A DNA stretch of 64,000 nucleotides from NCBI RefSeq assembly GCF_015709515.1, contig NZ_JADNQZ010000059.1, positions 496,001 through 560,000 of the forward strand. Direction: 5' to 3'. The DNA comes from Methylocystis sp. H62. GTDB taxonomy: Bacteria; Pseudomonadota; Alphaproteobacteria; Rhizobiales; Beijerinckiaceae. The first letter of the stretch is position 1; the number at the start of each line of letters is the position of its first letter. The position numbers were made by a program, and so were the translations under genes. The notes under the pieces are model-generated. The model was not told the origin of the DNA and ran no database searches. It saw nothing but the letters and a program-made list of their open reading frames with translations. Shown piece after piece: positions 9,912-15,926 of the stretch.

Positions 9912-10058
9912 CGGCGCCGCCGCGCCTACCGACAGGAATTAAAGAATTCATAGAGACCGTCCCCGTGGCGGGCCGCTTTCTTGCCCCGCTGCGGGGCTTT
10001 TGGTAGAAGCCACAGGCTTTCGCGCTCGCGCCGGCGCGCCGACGAACGCAGGACAATC

Positions 10059-11480
10059 ATGCTTTTCTACGAGCCGCTGTTCCTGTTTCTGTTCGGTCCG
10101 GCGGTCTACCTCCTGTATCTCTTTTTTGGAGAAGTCCGTGCGCGGCGGGCCGTCATCCTCTTTGCGGCAAGCGTCGTCTTTTACGCTTGGAGCGAGCCGG
10201 TCTTCATCCTCCTTGTCTTCGCGTCGGTCGGGCTTGATCTTTACGTGGGGCAGAAGATCGCCGCGTTGTCAGAGCAAAAACCACGCAAACGCTGGCTGGC
10301 GCTCGGCGTCGTCGCCAATCTCGCGATCCTCGTCTACTACAAATATACGGGTTTTCTCGCGCTCAATGTCGACGCGCTGCTCAAGGCGCTGACGCTGCCG
10401 GGGATCAACATTCCGCAGATCGCGCTGCCGATCGGCGTCAGCTTCATTGTCTTTGAAAAGATCACCTATCTCGTCGATGTCTATCGCGGCGTCACGGCGC
10501 CGGCGCGTAGTTCGCTGCTTTACGGGCTTTACGTCTTTTTCTTTCCCAAGCTCCTCGCCGGCCCGATCATCAAATATCACGACATCGCGCGCCAGTTCGA
10601 GGCGATGCCGCACGCCGACGTCGACGACTTTATCGTGGGTTTTTCCCGCTTCATGCTCGGCGTCGTGAAGAAGCTGCTCTTCGCCGACACATTGGCGAGC
10701 GGCGCGGATCTGATCTTCGCGCATGACGTTAGCGCCCTTGGCTTCGCGGAGGCCTGGGCGGGCGTGCTGTTCTTCACCTTCCAGATCTATTTCGATTTCT
10801 CGGGCTATTCCGACATGGCGATTGGGCTCGCGCGCATGTTCGGCTTCCGGCTTCTGGAAAATTTCAACATGCCTTATGTCGCGACGAGCATCACCGATTT
10901 CTGGCGGCGCTGGCATATTTCTCTCACCAGCTGGATTCGCGAATATTTATATTTCCCGCTCGGCGGCAATCGGCGCGGCGAAGCGCGCACCTACCTCAAT
11001 CTGTGGATCTGCTTCTTCGCTTCGGGGATTTGGCACGGCGCGGCTTGGACCTATATCGCTTGGGGCGCCTATAACGGCGTGTTCCTCGTGCTCGACCGGC
11101 TCTTTCTGGTCAATCGCCTGCAGCGGTTGCCGGACTGGCTCGCCAACGTCATCGCGATGATCATCGTGATCGTCGGCTGGACATTCTTTCGCGCAACCTC
11201 TCTGTCGCAAGCTGGCGCGCTGCTGGCGTTGATGGCGACGCCCTGGGCGCACGCCAGCGCGCCGATCGCCATTCCGGAAGAATATGTTGTCGTGGCTCTG
11301 GTCGCAGGAGCGATTTGCGTCGCGCAGCGGCTGTCGCTTTACGTCAAGGACTTCAATTGGGGAAGCGCGGCGCAGCGCTACGCATTGGCGTCAAACAGCG
11401 CGCTTTCCATGCTCTTCCTTGCGGCTTTGGCGAAGGGACTTGCCGATCCCTTCAAGCCGTTCATCTACTTCCGGTTTTGA
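10059..11480 (+). CDS. MBOAT-family O-acyltransferase (AlgI-like)
   Basis: This is a 473-residue polytopic membrane protein of the AlgI branch, which passes acetyl groups across the inner membrane for O-acetylation of exported polysaccharide. The hallmark motif TDFWRRWHISLTSWI is followed by YFPLGGNRRG and FASGIWHGAAWTY with the conserved catalytic His. The ATG at 10059 begins MLFYEPLFLFLFGPAVYLLY, a normal AlgI-type first helix. The next gene, an AlgX/AlgJ-like protein, starts 5 bp downstream, so the two are a unit. No polysaccharide polymerase or other alginate gene is nearby. The polymer modified is therefore unknown. Confidence 0.9.
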   Translation: MLFYEPLFLFLFGPAVYLLYLFFGEVRARRAVILFAASVVFYAWSEPVFILLVFASVGLDLYVGQKIAALSEQKPRKRWLALGVVANLAILVYYKYTGFLALNVDALLKALTLPGINIPQIALPIGVSFIVFEKITYLVDVYRGVTAPARSSLLYGLYVFFFPKLLAGPIIKYHDIARQFEAMPHADVDDFIVGFSRFMLGVVKKLLFADTLASGADLIFAHDVSALGFAEAWAGVLFFTFQIYFDFSGYSDMAIGLARMFGFRLLENFNMPYVATSITDFWRRWHISLTSWIREYLYFPLGGNRRGEARTYLNLWICFFASGIWHGAAWTYIAWGAYNGVFLVLDRLFLVNRLQRLPDWLANVIAMIIVIVGWTFFRATSLSQAGALLALMATPWAHASAPIAIPEEYVVVALVAGAICVAQRLSLYVKDFNWGSAAQRYALASNSALSMLFLAALAKGLADPFKPFIYFRF

Positions 11481-11485
11481 ATCGG

Positions 11486-12799
11486 ATGAGCGATCTCGCC
11501 GAAAAGAATAAGCCCGTCGGGCGACTTGAAGGAGAAAGCGGCGCGGCGTTGCGCGCGCCCGCGCGCGCTGAGAGCGTTGGCGCACGAGGCGCCTTCTTGA
11601 AGTCGCTGACGCTCGCGCGCCTGCCGATTTTCGGTTGCGCGGGCTTCATCGCATTTTTGTTCCTCGCCAATCTGTGGAATTTCGCCGTCGAAGGCGATTG
11701 GCCGAAGCTGCGCATCCGCAGCGCCTGGCCGCTTTACGGCGTCGCGAAGCCAAAGCCCGCGTCCTGGACGTTCGACGCCTTTCTTTCAGGAGAAACGCAA
11801 AAGGCGGTCTCCATCAATCTTGGCCGAATGTCGCCGGTGTTTCCGATCTCGGTGCGCGCGAAAAATCAGCTCGTCTTTTCGCTTTTCGGCGGCTCGGCCG
11901 CGCCCGGAGTCGTGATCGGCCGCAATGGCCAACTCTATGAGCAGTTCTACATCGACGAATTTTGCGCACGCGACGGCGCCTTCGATTCCGCGCGGCTCGG
12001 CGCGTGGTCTTCGACGCTGCGCGACATTCAGGAGAGGGCGCAAGGTCGCGGCAAGAGCTTCGTCTATCTCATCTCGCCCTCGAAGGCGGCGCGCTACCCG
12101 GAAGATCTGCCAAAGTCCGCGGCTTGCGCCCTGCGCGCGAGGGCGATGCCCGAAAAGCTTGCGCCTTACCGCGCGGCGCTCGATGAAGCTCACATGCGCT
12201 ATGTGGACGGCCCGGCGCTCATTGCGGCGGAAAAGCCCAAACAACCGATACCGCTCTTTCCGCGCGGCGGCACGCATTGGAACAGCATCGGCGGCGCGCT
12301 CGCCATGCGTGAAGCGACACGCGCGCTTCCCGCTTCTCCTGTCGGCGTTCTGGACTTTACGTCAGCGCCGGCGCCGGAAGCCCTGGGCACAGACCGCGAC
12401 CTGCTGGATCTGCTCAATCTCTTATCGCCGGACGCGCATTACCCGACGGCGGCGATCGGCCGGGCAGGGGAGAGGGGCGATTGCGCGCGCCCCCCGCGTC
12501 TGCTGGCGCTCGGCGGGAGCTTCCTGCATGAAGTTCTGGCGGCGGCGATGCTCGCGCCCTGTCCGCCGCAAATCGATTATTGGTTCTACATGCGGACCGA
12601 GGATAACGCTGTCGAACTCGGCCATTACCGGCGCGCGCCGGGCGACGCCTCGAACGGCGAGCGGCTGGCGGCCACGACAGAGGAGCTCGATGAGAACCTC
12701 GCGGGCGCGGATGTCATCCTGCTCGAAGAAAATGAATCGAGCATCGCCACGACGAAGCAGGTAGGGCATCTCGCCGAGGCGCTGCGCCGTTTGCCTTAG
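11486..12799 (+). CDS. AlgX/AlgJ-like SGNH-type O-acetyltransferase partner
   Basis: This 437-residue protein has one membrane anchor (about residues 48-68, LPIFGCAGFIAFLFLANLWNF) and a periplasmic domain. SGNH-like landmarks are FVYLISPSKAARYPEDLP, the conserved GGTHWNSIGGALA near residue 270, and LALGGSFLHEVL carrying the Ser. In alginate and acetan-like systems this partner takes acetyl from the MBOAT protein and places it on the polymer. The start at 11486 follows the MBOAT stop by five bases; the longer frame would overlap the MBOAT gene heavily. Family assignment is good. Substrate is unknown. Confidence 0.82.
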   Translation: MSDLAEKNKPVGRLEGESGAALRAPARAESVGARGAFLKSLTLARLPIFGCAGFIAFLFLANLWNFAVEGDWPKLRIRSAWPLYGVAKPKPASWTFDAFLSGETQKAVSINLGRMSPVFPISVRAKNQLVFSLFGGSAAPGVVIGRNGQLYEQFYIDEFCARDGAFDSARLGAWSSTLRDIQERAQGRGKSFVYLISPSKAARYPEDLPKSAACALRARAMPEKLAPYRAALDEAHMRYVDGPALIAAEKPKQPIPLFPRGGTHWNSIGGALAMREATRALPASPVGVLDFTSAPAPEALGTDRDLLDLLNLLSPDAHYPTAAIGRAGERGDCARPPRLLALGGSFLHEVLAAAMLAPCPPQIDYWFYMRTEDNAVELGHYRRAPGDASNGERLAATTEELDENLAGADVILLEENESSIATTKQVGHLAEALRRLP

Positions 12800-13502: not shown

Positions 13503-14357
13503 TCACGCCGCCTGCGATGGATCATCCCAATAGCCCTCCGAGCGGGCGATCCTCGCGTATTCGGCATGCACCACGGCCGGGGTGTAGAGCCGCTCCAGTC
13601 GGCGCACCACGAAATGGCCGCGCGCGAGGCTCTGGAAGTGCTCGGTGAACGCGACATTGATCGCCGCGCCGCTGATCGCGCCGATGATCGGGACAGCCTG
13701 CGCCGCGGTTTTTTGCGACACGACCATGCCGAAGCGCGCCGCAACCGCGCCGATCAGACGCGCCAAAGCGGGCGCCGCGTCGCTGGAGATCTGATGGACA
13801 GTCATAAAACGTGCGGCGTCGGACACGGATTTCGCGAGAAGCGCGCGGAGCGCGAGATAGCCGCCTTCCAGAATATTGTCCCCAGCGGAAGGGCCGCCCA
13901 GCGCAAAAACTTCGAGGCAGGCGAGGGCGGCGCCTGGGTGGCGCAGGTCCTCTCCCTCCGCCTGGGCAATTTCCGCGATCGAGCGCAGGATGATCGTCGT
14001 CGACACCGGCAATTCGATCGGCAGGCTCGCGAGGCCCACGGCGCCGCCGACGCCTCCCGACAGGGCCGCGAGACGACGGTGAATGCGTATGGTGTCCTTC
14101 GCCGGCTGCGCGTCGAGGCTCGCCAAGGCTATCTTCATCGCCGCGGCGAGCGCCTTTTGCGTCGCCGAGGCGACCGTCGCCTGCAGGCGCGGCGGCAGCG
14201 TCATCGCGCCAAAACTCAGCTGCCGGCTCGCCAATCCGGCAAGCCGCGTTGCAAAACTCTGTCTTTCCAGCGCCGCGACGGCGGCGCGCAGCGCCTCGAC
14301 GTCGGACTGGGAAAGGCCCTGGTCCACGAGAACGGGAAGCGGATAGGAGTTCGCCAC
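13503..14357 (-). CDS. EcsC family protein
   Basis: This 284-residue protein has the EcsC signature: a glycine-rich helical region GGVGGAVGLASLPIELPVSTT followed by IILRSIAEIAQAEGEDLRHP and LEVFALGG. A second glycine-rich stretch reads AVPIIGAISGAAINVAFTEHFQ. The family is named after a Bacillus ABC-transporter-linked protein, but its biochemical role is not established. The start is a GTG at 14357 with GAGGA at good spacing. It is divergent from the DUF992 gene across about 250 bp. Confidence 0.85.
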   Translation of the reverse strand: MANSYPLPVLVDQGLSQSDVEALRAAVAALERQSFATRLAGLASRQLSFGAMTLPPRLQATVASATQKALAAAMKIALASLDAQPAKDTIRIHRRLAALSGGVGGAVGLASLPIELPVSTTIILRSIAEIAQAEGEDLRHPGAALACLEVFALGGPSAGDNILEGGYLALRALLAKSVSDAARFMTVHQISSDAAPALARLIGAVAARFGMVVSQKTAAQAVPIIGAISGAAINVAFTEHFQSLARGHFVVRRLERLYTPAVVHAEYARIARSEGYWDDPSQAA

Positions 14358-14604: not shown

Positions 14605-15156
14605 ATGCGGAAATTTGGATTGGGTCGCGCGCTGAGCGGCGTTTTCGCTCTGGCCTTGCTGGCGCCGGCGAGCGCTTTCGCGGGCGACCGCATCGGCTCC
14701 TTGCAGTGCCGGCTGCTTGGCAACGGCATCAGCGTCTTGGTCGAAAATCAGCAGATCGACTGCATGTATCGCGATGACGCTGAAGGCGCTGTTCCTGCTC
14801 ATTACGTCGGCGCGCTCACCAAGGTCGGCGCCAATGTGACGATCAACGGTGCTGGCGAGCTTGCCTGGGGCGTCGTCTCCGCCACGAGCCATATCGGACC
14901 GGGCGCGCTCGCGGGCGCCTATTATGGCCCGGGCTTCTCAGCCAAAGTTCTGGTCGGCGGCGGCGGCGCGGCGCTCGTCGGCGGCTCCAACGACACTTTC
15001 TCGCTGCAGCCATTCAACATCCAGGCCGGCTCCGGCGTCGGTTGGACGGCTGGCGTCGAGCGCCTGACGCTCGCCTATGTGCCGCCGCCGCCCCCGCCCG
15101 TGCTGCGCCGCCATCACGTCCACCATCATCACCATTATCACCACCATCACGGCTAA
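14605..15156 (+). CDS. DUF992 exported protein with C-terminal polyhistidine tail
   Basis: The protein has 183 residues. A clear signal peptide (FALALLAPASAFA, cleavage near residue 26) precedes a DUF992 domain: RIGSLQCRLLGN, IDCMYRDDAEG, ELAWGVVSATSHIGPGALAGAYYG. DUF992 proteins are small periplasmic proteins of Alphaproteobacteria with unknown function. Unusually, the end has six prolines and then a 14-residue tail with 11 histidines (HHVHHHHHYHHHHG), which would bind divalent metals. The ATG is preceded by AGGAGAAC, a strong SD. It is monocistronic, facing the convergent SDR gene. Confidence 0.9.
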   Translation: MRKFGLGRALSGVFALALLAPASAFAGDRIGSLQCRLLGNGISVLVENQQIDCMYRDDAEGAVPAHYVGALTKVGANVTINGAGELAWGVVSATSHIGPGALAGAYYGPGFSAKVLVGGGGAALVGGSNDTFSLQPFNIQAGSGVGWTAGVERLTLAYVPPPPPPVLRRHHVHHHHHYHHHHG

Positions 15157-15179: not shown

Positions 15180-15926
15180 TTACGCAGGCGCGGAGAAGCT
15201 CAGCAGCCGGTCGGTAGGGAAATCATAAAGCCTCGCGCTTTCGCGCCATTCCGGCGCCAGCGGCGCGAGGCATTTTTTTGCGAATTCTTCTGGCGTTTTG
15301 AGCGTCATCGGATCTTCCCCCGGCATCGCCTGAGCGCGCATGCGCGTGCGCAGCGGACCCGGATTGGCCAGCATGACGGTGACGCCGTCGCCAGCGGCCT
15401 CAGATGCATAAGTGCGGGCCATTGCTTCGAGCGCCGCCTTTGAGACCGCATAAGCGCCCCAGAACGGCTTCATCGTCTCGCGATGCGCCGCCCCGGATGT
15501 GATGAAGAGGACGCGCCCGGCGCCTGACGCGCGCAGGAGCGGATCAAGTGAACGGATGAGCCGCCAGTTTGCGGTGACGTTGACCGCCATGACGCGATTC
15601 CAGTCCTTCGGATCGACGTGGGCGAGCGGCGACAGAGGTCCAAGAATTCCTGCATTGCCGACGAAGACGTCGAGCTTGCCCCAGCGTTCGAACAGCGCCG
15701 CGCCGAGACGGTCGAGCGCGTCAAAGTCGGCAAGATCGCAGGGAACGAGCGTCGCTTGCCCGCCCTGCGCGCGGATTTCATCGTCGAGTTCTTCGAGCGC
15801 GCCCTGCGTGCGCGCCAGAGCCACGACATGCGCGCCGTCGCGGGCGAGTTCGAGCGCAAGGGCGCGTCCAATGCCGCGCGAGGCGCCGGTGACAAGTGCG
15901 ATGCGGTCGGAAGGGAGAAGCGTCAT
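15180..15926 (-). CDS. Short-chain dehydrogenase/reductase
   Basis: This is a 248-residue classical SDR. The NAD(P)-binding TGASRGIGRALALE is at residues 13-26, GNAGILGP follows near residue 90, and the catalytic pair is Tyr and Lys in GAYAVSKAALE, with Ser in ITSGAA. The substrate cannot be told from sequence. The start lies just 6 bp after the stop of the degraded ParE remnant, so the gene may be read from the purF/antitoxin transcript. No clear SD is visible before the ATG. Confidence 0.9.
   Translation of the reverse strand: MTLLPSDRIALVTGASRGIGRALALELARDGAHVVALARTQGALEELDDEIRAQGGQATLVPCDLADFDALDRLGAALFERWGKLDVFVGNAGILGPLSPLAHVDPKDWNRVMAVNVTANWRLIRSLDPLLRASGAGRVLFITSGAAHRETMKPFWGAYAVSKAALEAMARTYASEAAGDGVTVMLANPGPLRTRMRAQAMPGEDPMTLKTPEEFAKKCLAPLAPEWRESARLYDFPTDRLLSFSAPA

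Follow-up and report, generated by a model that had tools for sequence, protein, structure and literature searches.

The DUF992 gene of the window (the whole 64,000-nucleotide stretch of Methylocystis DNA that was analysed) codes for a protein with a natural polyHis arm at its C-terminus, a variant on the known natural polyHis tails, and we interpret this tail, with a probability of roughly 0.6, as a flexible metal-binding arm of the cell envelope. The conserved His arm, together with the fusion of further DUF992 copies to the metal-binding SmbP, turns this uncharacterised domain into a concrete metal-binding question. The gene and its neighbors are arranged as follows:

13503 to 14357, minus strand: EcsC-family gene (PF12787), the divergent upstream neighbor, present at 17 of the 24 named Methylocystis-clade loci and at 4 of 4 loci of genus g42
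14605 to 15156, plus strand: DUF992 gene (copy B; open frame, PF06186), 183 amino acids plus stop, presumed exported, with a polyHis tail
14605 to 14682, plus strand: presumed signal peptide, residues 1-26, with cleavage between AFA and GD, read by eye
14683 to 15081, plus strand: DUF992 core (Pfam), with C35 and C53 invariant in the 36-sequence alignment
15082 to 15099, plus strand: six-proline linker, residues 160-165 (sequence and translation)
15106 to 15153, plus strand: Arg-Arg and polyHis tail RRHHVHHHHHYHHHHG, residues 168-183 (sequence and translation)
15180 to 15926, minus strand: short-chain dehydrogenase (SDR) gene (PF00106), the convergent downstream neighbor, present at 22 of the 24 named loci and at 4 of 4 g42 loci

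The window protein thus shows a simple architecture: a signal-like N-terminus (recognized by eye), the DUF992 domain, six prolines and the tail PPPPPPVLRRHHVHHHHHYHHHHG. Its membership of the DUF992 family is clear (98.5 bits against a gathering cut-off of 22.7), with PF06186 matching residues 23-156 over profile positions 9-142 of 143 (E 3.9e-28). At E up to 0.001 this is its sole Pfam match, the SMBP domain (PF16785) not being among the families assigned to it, and neither the window protein nor one of the fused proteins described below has a match in NCBIfam at E up to 0.01. The N-terminus, MRKFGLGRALSGVFALALLAPASAFA followed by GD, combines a basic n-region, a hydrophobic core and an AXA motif when inspected by eye, and is similar across the 36-row orthologue alignment; from this classical Sec signal pattern, judged by eye, the protein is presumed to be exported. 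The initial annotation had described an exported DUF992 protein: Pfam confirms the domain, and the export has the standing of a signal-like N-terminus read by eye. The AlphaFold model is of low confidence (mean pLDDT 39.1, pTM 0.35), and a PDB search with a profile of the 36 orthologues gave no match up to E 1. DUF992 is barely present by name in the open-licence PMC literature; a Brucella member is listed among uncharacterised outer membrane proteins in one report (PMC6377625).

The six prolines lead into VLRRHHVHHHHHYHHHHG, in which 11 of the last 14 residues are His (15112-15153), exactly as first annotated, so that the His run stands at the chain end as in other natural polyHis tails. The coordinates originally given, 15090-15156, cover this tail and additionally take in the stop codon (15154-15156) and part of the proline linker. 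At an assumed His frequency of 2-3%, the probability of at least 11 His in 14 residues is ~7e-17 to 6e-15, and of the 591 stop-to-stop stretches that span at least 60 codons in the window's six frames, no other has more than 5 His per 14 residues. The His codons are 5 CAT and 6 CAC in 8 runs, and such mixed codons do not fit single-codon slippage as the origin of the tail. The earlier dismissal of one-codon slippage therefore stands, but it has to be qualified: Tandem Repeats Finder reports an imperfect 9-bp repeat, CACCATCAT, present 3.3 times with 85% matches (15121-15150), and the tail may have arisen in part through the expansion of a unit longer than one codon, with subsequent drift.

The genome (4.54 Mb in 59 contigs, genus Methylocystis) has two DUF992 genes: the His-tailed copy of the window, i.e. 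copy B, and copy A on contig C58, which ends PPPPPPPAPKKTRAHR. Among close relatives, the protein of Methylocystis rosea SV97 is 96% identical. In a tree of 171 proteins both Methylocystis copies and those of genus g42 fall in one clade of 68 rows (SH-aLRT 100), with a single g33 protein among them; Methylocystis also has a third and distant DUF992 protein (L104/L105, from G018 and G019), which is placed elsewhere. The tree rows derive from 189 matches in the family, as grouped by the genome search, with 178 remaining once identical sequences were taken out and 171 after removal of 7 that covered fewer than 120 profile positions; three family matches (the second places in G051 and G050 and a fragment in G163) were left out.

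Usable unfused versions of copy B were obtained from 36 of the 39 Methylocystis genomes, the other three being G022, where a contig ends, G026, whose frame is broken, and G030, in which copy A alone matched. Counted over the last six core residues plus the tail, they have 1-18 His (median 7), with 32 of the 36 reaching 3 His, 25 reaching 5 and 13 reaching 10; a run of at least 4 Pro is found in 23 of the 36 tails. Two close species keep all 11 His positions of the window protein. The initial annotation had tied its reading to the presence of the tail in close orthologues, and it is indeed conserved there and also beyond the genus: the four g42 orthologues have 21, 18, 14 and 4 His. As both the EcsC and the dehydrogenase genes occur at all four g42 loci, these proteins are likely positional orthologues; the fifth g42 genome, G140, is not among the genomes with a DUF992 match. 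The two named loci without the dehydrogenase are L182, where a contig end is nearby, and the fused copy L188. Among the 103 proteins sampled from the remaining genera of the family, 9 have 5 or more tail His, and these come from 4 of the 28 genera. The relatives outside Methylocystis and g42 share the nearly full-length domain and the signal-like N-terminus, as do those of the order, but differ from the window protein in that 73 of the 103 stop no more than 8 residues from the edge of the domain. On the tree, the presence of at least 5 His has to change 13 times, with starred branches forcing 6 of these changes, which indicates that such tails were gained or lost several times. Two variants of copy B were also observed: in L016/L168 (X3_MetaBAT.1 MAG) 13 core residues are missing after GGSN and the His tail is kept, and in L076/L190 (the G026 copy) the frame seems broken with the His tail unread, which could be an assembly error.

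What most strongly supports, at the level of sequence, a putative metal-binding place at the end of the DUF992 protein is its fusion to SmbP. Two extra Methylocystis DUF992 copies run, after PPPPMKH, into an SMBP domain (PF16785) at the tail position: one in G015 (L072 14235-15281, minus strand; E 1.5e-36, two SMBP stretches) and one in G017 (L073 586-1374, minus strand; E 1.2e-17), the latter also present as the named record L188 5926-6705 (plus strand) from a bog MAG. The nearest solved structure for the G017 fused protein is SmbP itself (PDB 3u8v, E 3e-12). SmbP, which folds as helices, resembles the window protein in being His-rich and is abundant in the same genus, with SMBP genes in 38 of the 39 Methylocystis genomes and five matches in the window's own. 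It differs in that it uses acidic residues along with His, and the window protein itself has no SMBP match; SmbP is periplasmic and binds Cu(II), Mn(II), Zn(II) and Ni(II), as described in PMC10893511. Both fusion genomes, G015 and G017, retain unfused copies (L068, L074). The fusions are found in these 2 genomes only and are non-syntenic, with no neighbor gene of the window beside them. Nine proteins encoded next to them were scanned without revealing a recognised metal transporter, two being without a family, and the only metal-related name is a 'putative F0F1-ATPase subunit Ca2+/Mg2+ transporter' adjoining an ATP synthase subunit gene.

We propose that the protein would act as an exported envelope component in which the DUF992 domain, whose two invariant Cys perhaps form a disulfide, leads through a stiff spacer of prolines to an arm that is rich in His and disordered. 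Most likely this arm would offer several loose sites for divalent metals (Cu, Zn, Ni), with the total number of His probably outweighing their exact positions, and would serve to buffer or retain metal, either in the periplasm or at the outer membrane. The gene, its domain and tail, their conservation and synteny and the SmbP fusion of extra copies are observed; for the window protein, export, disorder, metal binding and buffering are what we infer, and copper is a plausible metal given the methanotroph host. A partial parallel comes from mycobacterial GroEL1, a chaperonin relative that is not known to be exported. This protein is unrelated but likewise has a His-rich C-terminal tail; in model peptides with fewer His than the window tail, it binds Cu(II), and its three binding sites survive single His-to-Gln changes, according to PMC10170517. 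A multi-site metal arm is favored by the combination of a His content that is retained as positions and length vary, the fusion to SmbP and the Cu(II) binding of the GroEL1 tail. The original proposal that the tail binds and buffers metal gains from the fusions and the conserved tail, but is only partly supported, because 11 of the 36 orthologues have fewer than 5 His and tend toward more Lys/Arg, and because neither the neighboring genes nor the upstream alignment (by eye) hint at metal regulation.

This weakness leads to the main rival explanation, which we consider rather unlikely: a generic cationic, proline-spaced arm that anchors the protein to the anionic envelope (lipopolysaccharide, peptidoglycan, polyphosphate or exopolysaccharide), with His merely one way of building it and any metal binding incidental. 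It is the main rival because Lys/Arg replaces His in several lineages. Within the same gene the two trade off across the copy-B tails (Spearman -0.82, not corrected for phylogeny), those with fewer than 5 His tending toward more Lys/Arg. Moreover, copy A in the same genus has Lys/Arg tails of the PPPPPPAPAAKPKKTRAHR type (mean Lys/Arg 4.2; at least 3 His in 0 of 26), various DUF992 proteins elsewhere end in short Arg/Lys stretches, and the window tail itself begins with RR. Pfam scans of the window's neighbor genes gave the EcsC and SDR types and nothing suggesting metal regulation. An alignment of 13 upstream sequences shows conserved blocks with no obvious metalloregulator palindrome by eye, and a scan for promoters and terminators yielded no promoter and a single terminator-like site, no more than in shuffled sequence. 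With Lys/Arg in the place of His in several lineages, no metal genes among the neighbors scanned and no such palindrome evident, the anchoring explanation keeps its standing. It accounts poorly, however, for unbroken runs of 10-18 His in separate lineages (L018, L026/L028/L030 and g42), given that His is mostly uncharged at neutral pH, and for the metal-binding domain that occupies the place of the tail in the two extra copies.

It is more doubtful still that the tail is a nearly neutral low-complexity extension, grown by repeat expansion on a tolerant protein end. The imperfect 9-bp repeat and the large variation in length are consistent with such an origin, as is the order sample, where DUF992 proteins end at or near the domain edge and 0 of 31 proteins from the best-scoring 30 loci have at least 3 His, a sample that favors model-like members. 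The His codons are identical among the three closest species, and hence give no sign of selection there, either way. Against mere expansion, the codons are thoroughly mixed over the 36 unfused copy-B tails, the window's included (133 CAT vs 142 CAC), and the 32 of 36 orthologues with at least 3 His point to retention. Some wider pairs show synonymous CAT/CAC differences with His kept, yet the same pairs also show changes from His to other residues. Finally, the reversed control pattern of the His-codon run (CAY)7 is rare in the genus, with 3 matches in total in 39 genomes.

Returning to the metal-binding arm, the DUF992 tail has counterparts in other proteins. The window's genome has three (CAY)5 sites: one is the DUF992 tail, the second lies in the gene of a small, apparently exported protein that ends in HHHHHPHHNLHHHHRHHL, and at the third no His-coding ORF was found among the listed ORFs. 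The second protein, of the VTGVL family, has 97 amino acids and no significant Pfam match (G000:C51:119685-119975, minus strand, equivalent to locus L034 1462-1752, minus strand). It has matches in 23 of the 39 Methylocystis genomes, and each of these 23 carries 9-18 His within its final 30 residues (one member, L268, is cut by a contig end); among them are matches from genomes where the DUF992 tail is Lys/Arg-rich (G014, G024, G034, G036 and G037). VTGVL proteins share with the window protein a signal-like N-terminus, a Pro/Ala linker, the C-terminal polyHis and the same genomes, but their core sequence is unrelated; two members tested gave no significant Pfam match.

Runs of (CAY)7 are found in 30 of the 39 Methylocystis genomes, the window's own having none. 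We read 40 such loci, i.e. 30 from the search (one per genome) and 10 chosen further places, and 38 resemble, by eye, small proteins for export that belong to several unrelated families: 19 VTGVL, 11 SYxELLxPIPNA (with L278 and L313 representing one place), 3 DUF992 and 5 very short or unclassified ones with a signal-like start. One of the remaining two is HypB-like and the other is without a signal-like start. Across the family, (CAY)7 occurs in 59 of 149 genomes, while the reversed control has 12 matches, concentrated in 4 genomes. Among 28 loci outside Methylocystis and g42, some code for small exported proteins, belonging to these families or to different ones, others resemble by eye familiar types of metal protein from the cytoplasm or the membrane, and a few could be frames open by chance; their presence there indicates that the polyHis habit is not special to methanotrophs. 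We suggest tentatively, at somewhat less than even odds, that Methylocystis and several genera of the family keep a set of unrelated small exported polyHis proteins, some of them very short and consisting of hardly anything but a signal peptide and a His run, which together would form a partly interchangeable metal sponge of the envelope. The DUF992 tail would then be one part of this sponge and the SmbP fusion an alternative build of the same arm. If real, such a repertoire bears on envelope metal buffering in methanotrophs (copper for particulate methane monooxygenase, pMMO) and their relatives, and would be a warning of Ni-affinity contaminants in these bacteria. A search of the open-licence PMC literature for polyhistidine together with Beijerinckiaceae found nothing on such tails.

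A dedicated role of the tail in copper supply to pMMO is the least probable explanation and very unlikely: two pMMO genera (Methylocystis and g42) have the His-tailed copy, and His tails are associated with pMMO in Methylocystis (raw Fisher p 0.018), but this rests on 3 independent pairs on supported branches, too few to give a phylogenetic test any power; (CAY)7 runs also occur in 53 of 138 family genomes without a match to PF02461, and the highest His count of a VTGVL protein (18 in the last 30) is in G037, which likewise has no such match. PF02461 (AMO in Pfam), which we take to cover a subunit of pMMO, is present in the window's genome and was not matched in G021 and G027, which may be an assembly gap. 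Family-wide, (CAY)7 is not significantly commoner in pMMO genomes (6 of 11 vs 53 of 138, p 0.34). In the main text of a copper transcriptome study of Methylosinus trichosporium, the words 'DUF' and 'histidine' are absent (PMC12811070).

Some further observations concern the neighborhood and the other polyHis proteins. Upstream of the DUF992 gene, at 9981-12799 of the window (plus strand), lies a pair of MBOAT and AlgX-like genes reminiscent of polysaccharide O-acetylation, which is found upstream in many Methylocystis loci. The SYxELLxPIPNA-like proteins, of which one member tested had no significant Pfam match, appear to be exported and show the motif followed by Tyr-rich and polyHis stretches, both in Methylocystis and in other genera (L274, L276, L278, L286, L288, L289, L305, L307, L310, L312, L327, L328, L329, L333, L334, L335 and L341). 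As judged by eye, L306 and L311 are very short ORFs reaching scarcely beyond a signal-like peptide, H[MY]TGHPH and a His run, and in L304 and L308 the His run comes shortly after the presumed cleavage site, such that the mature peptide of all four would start with His.
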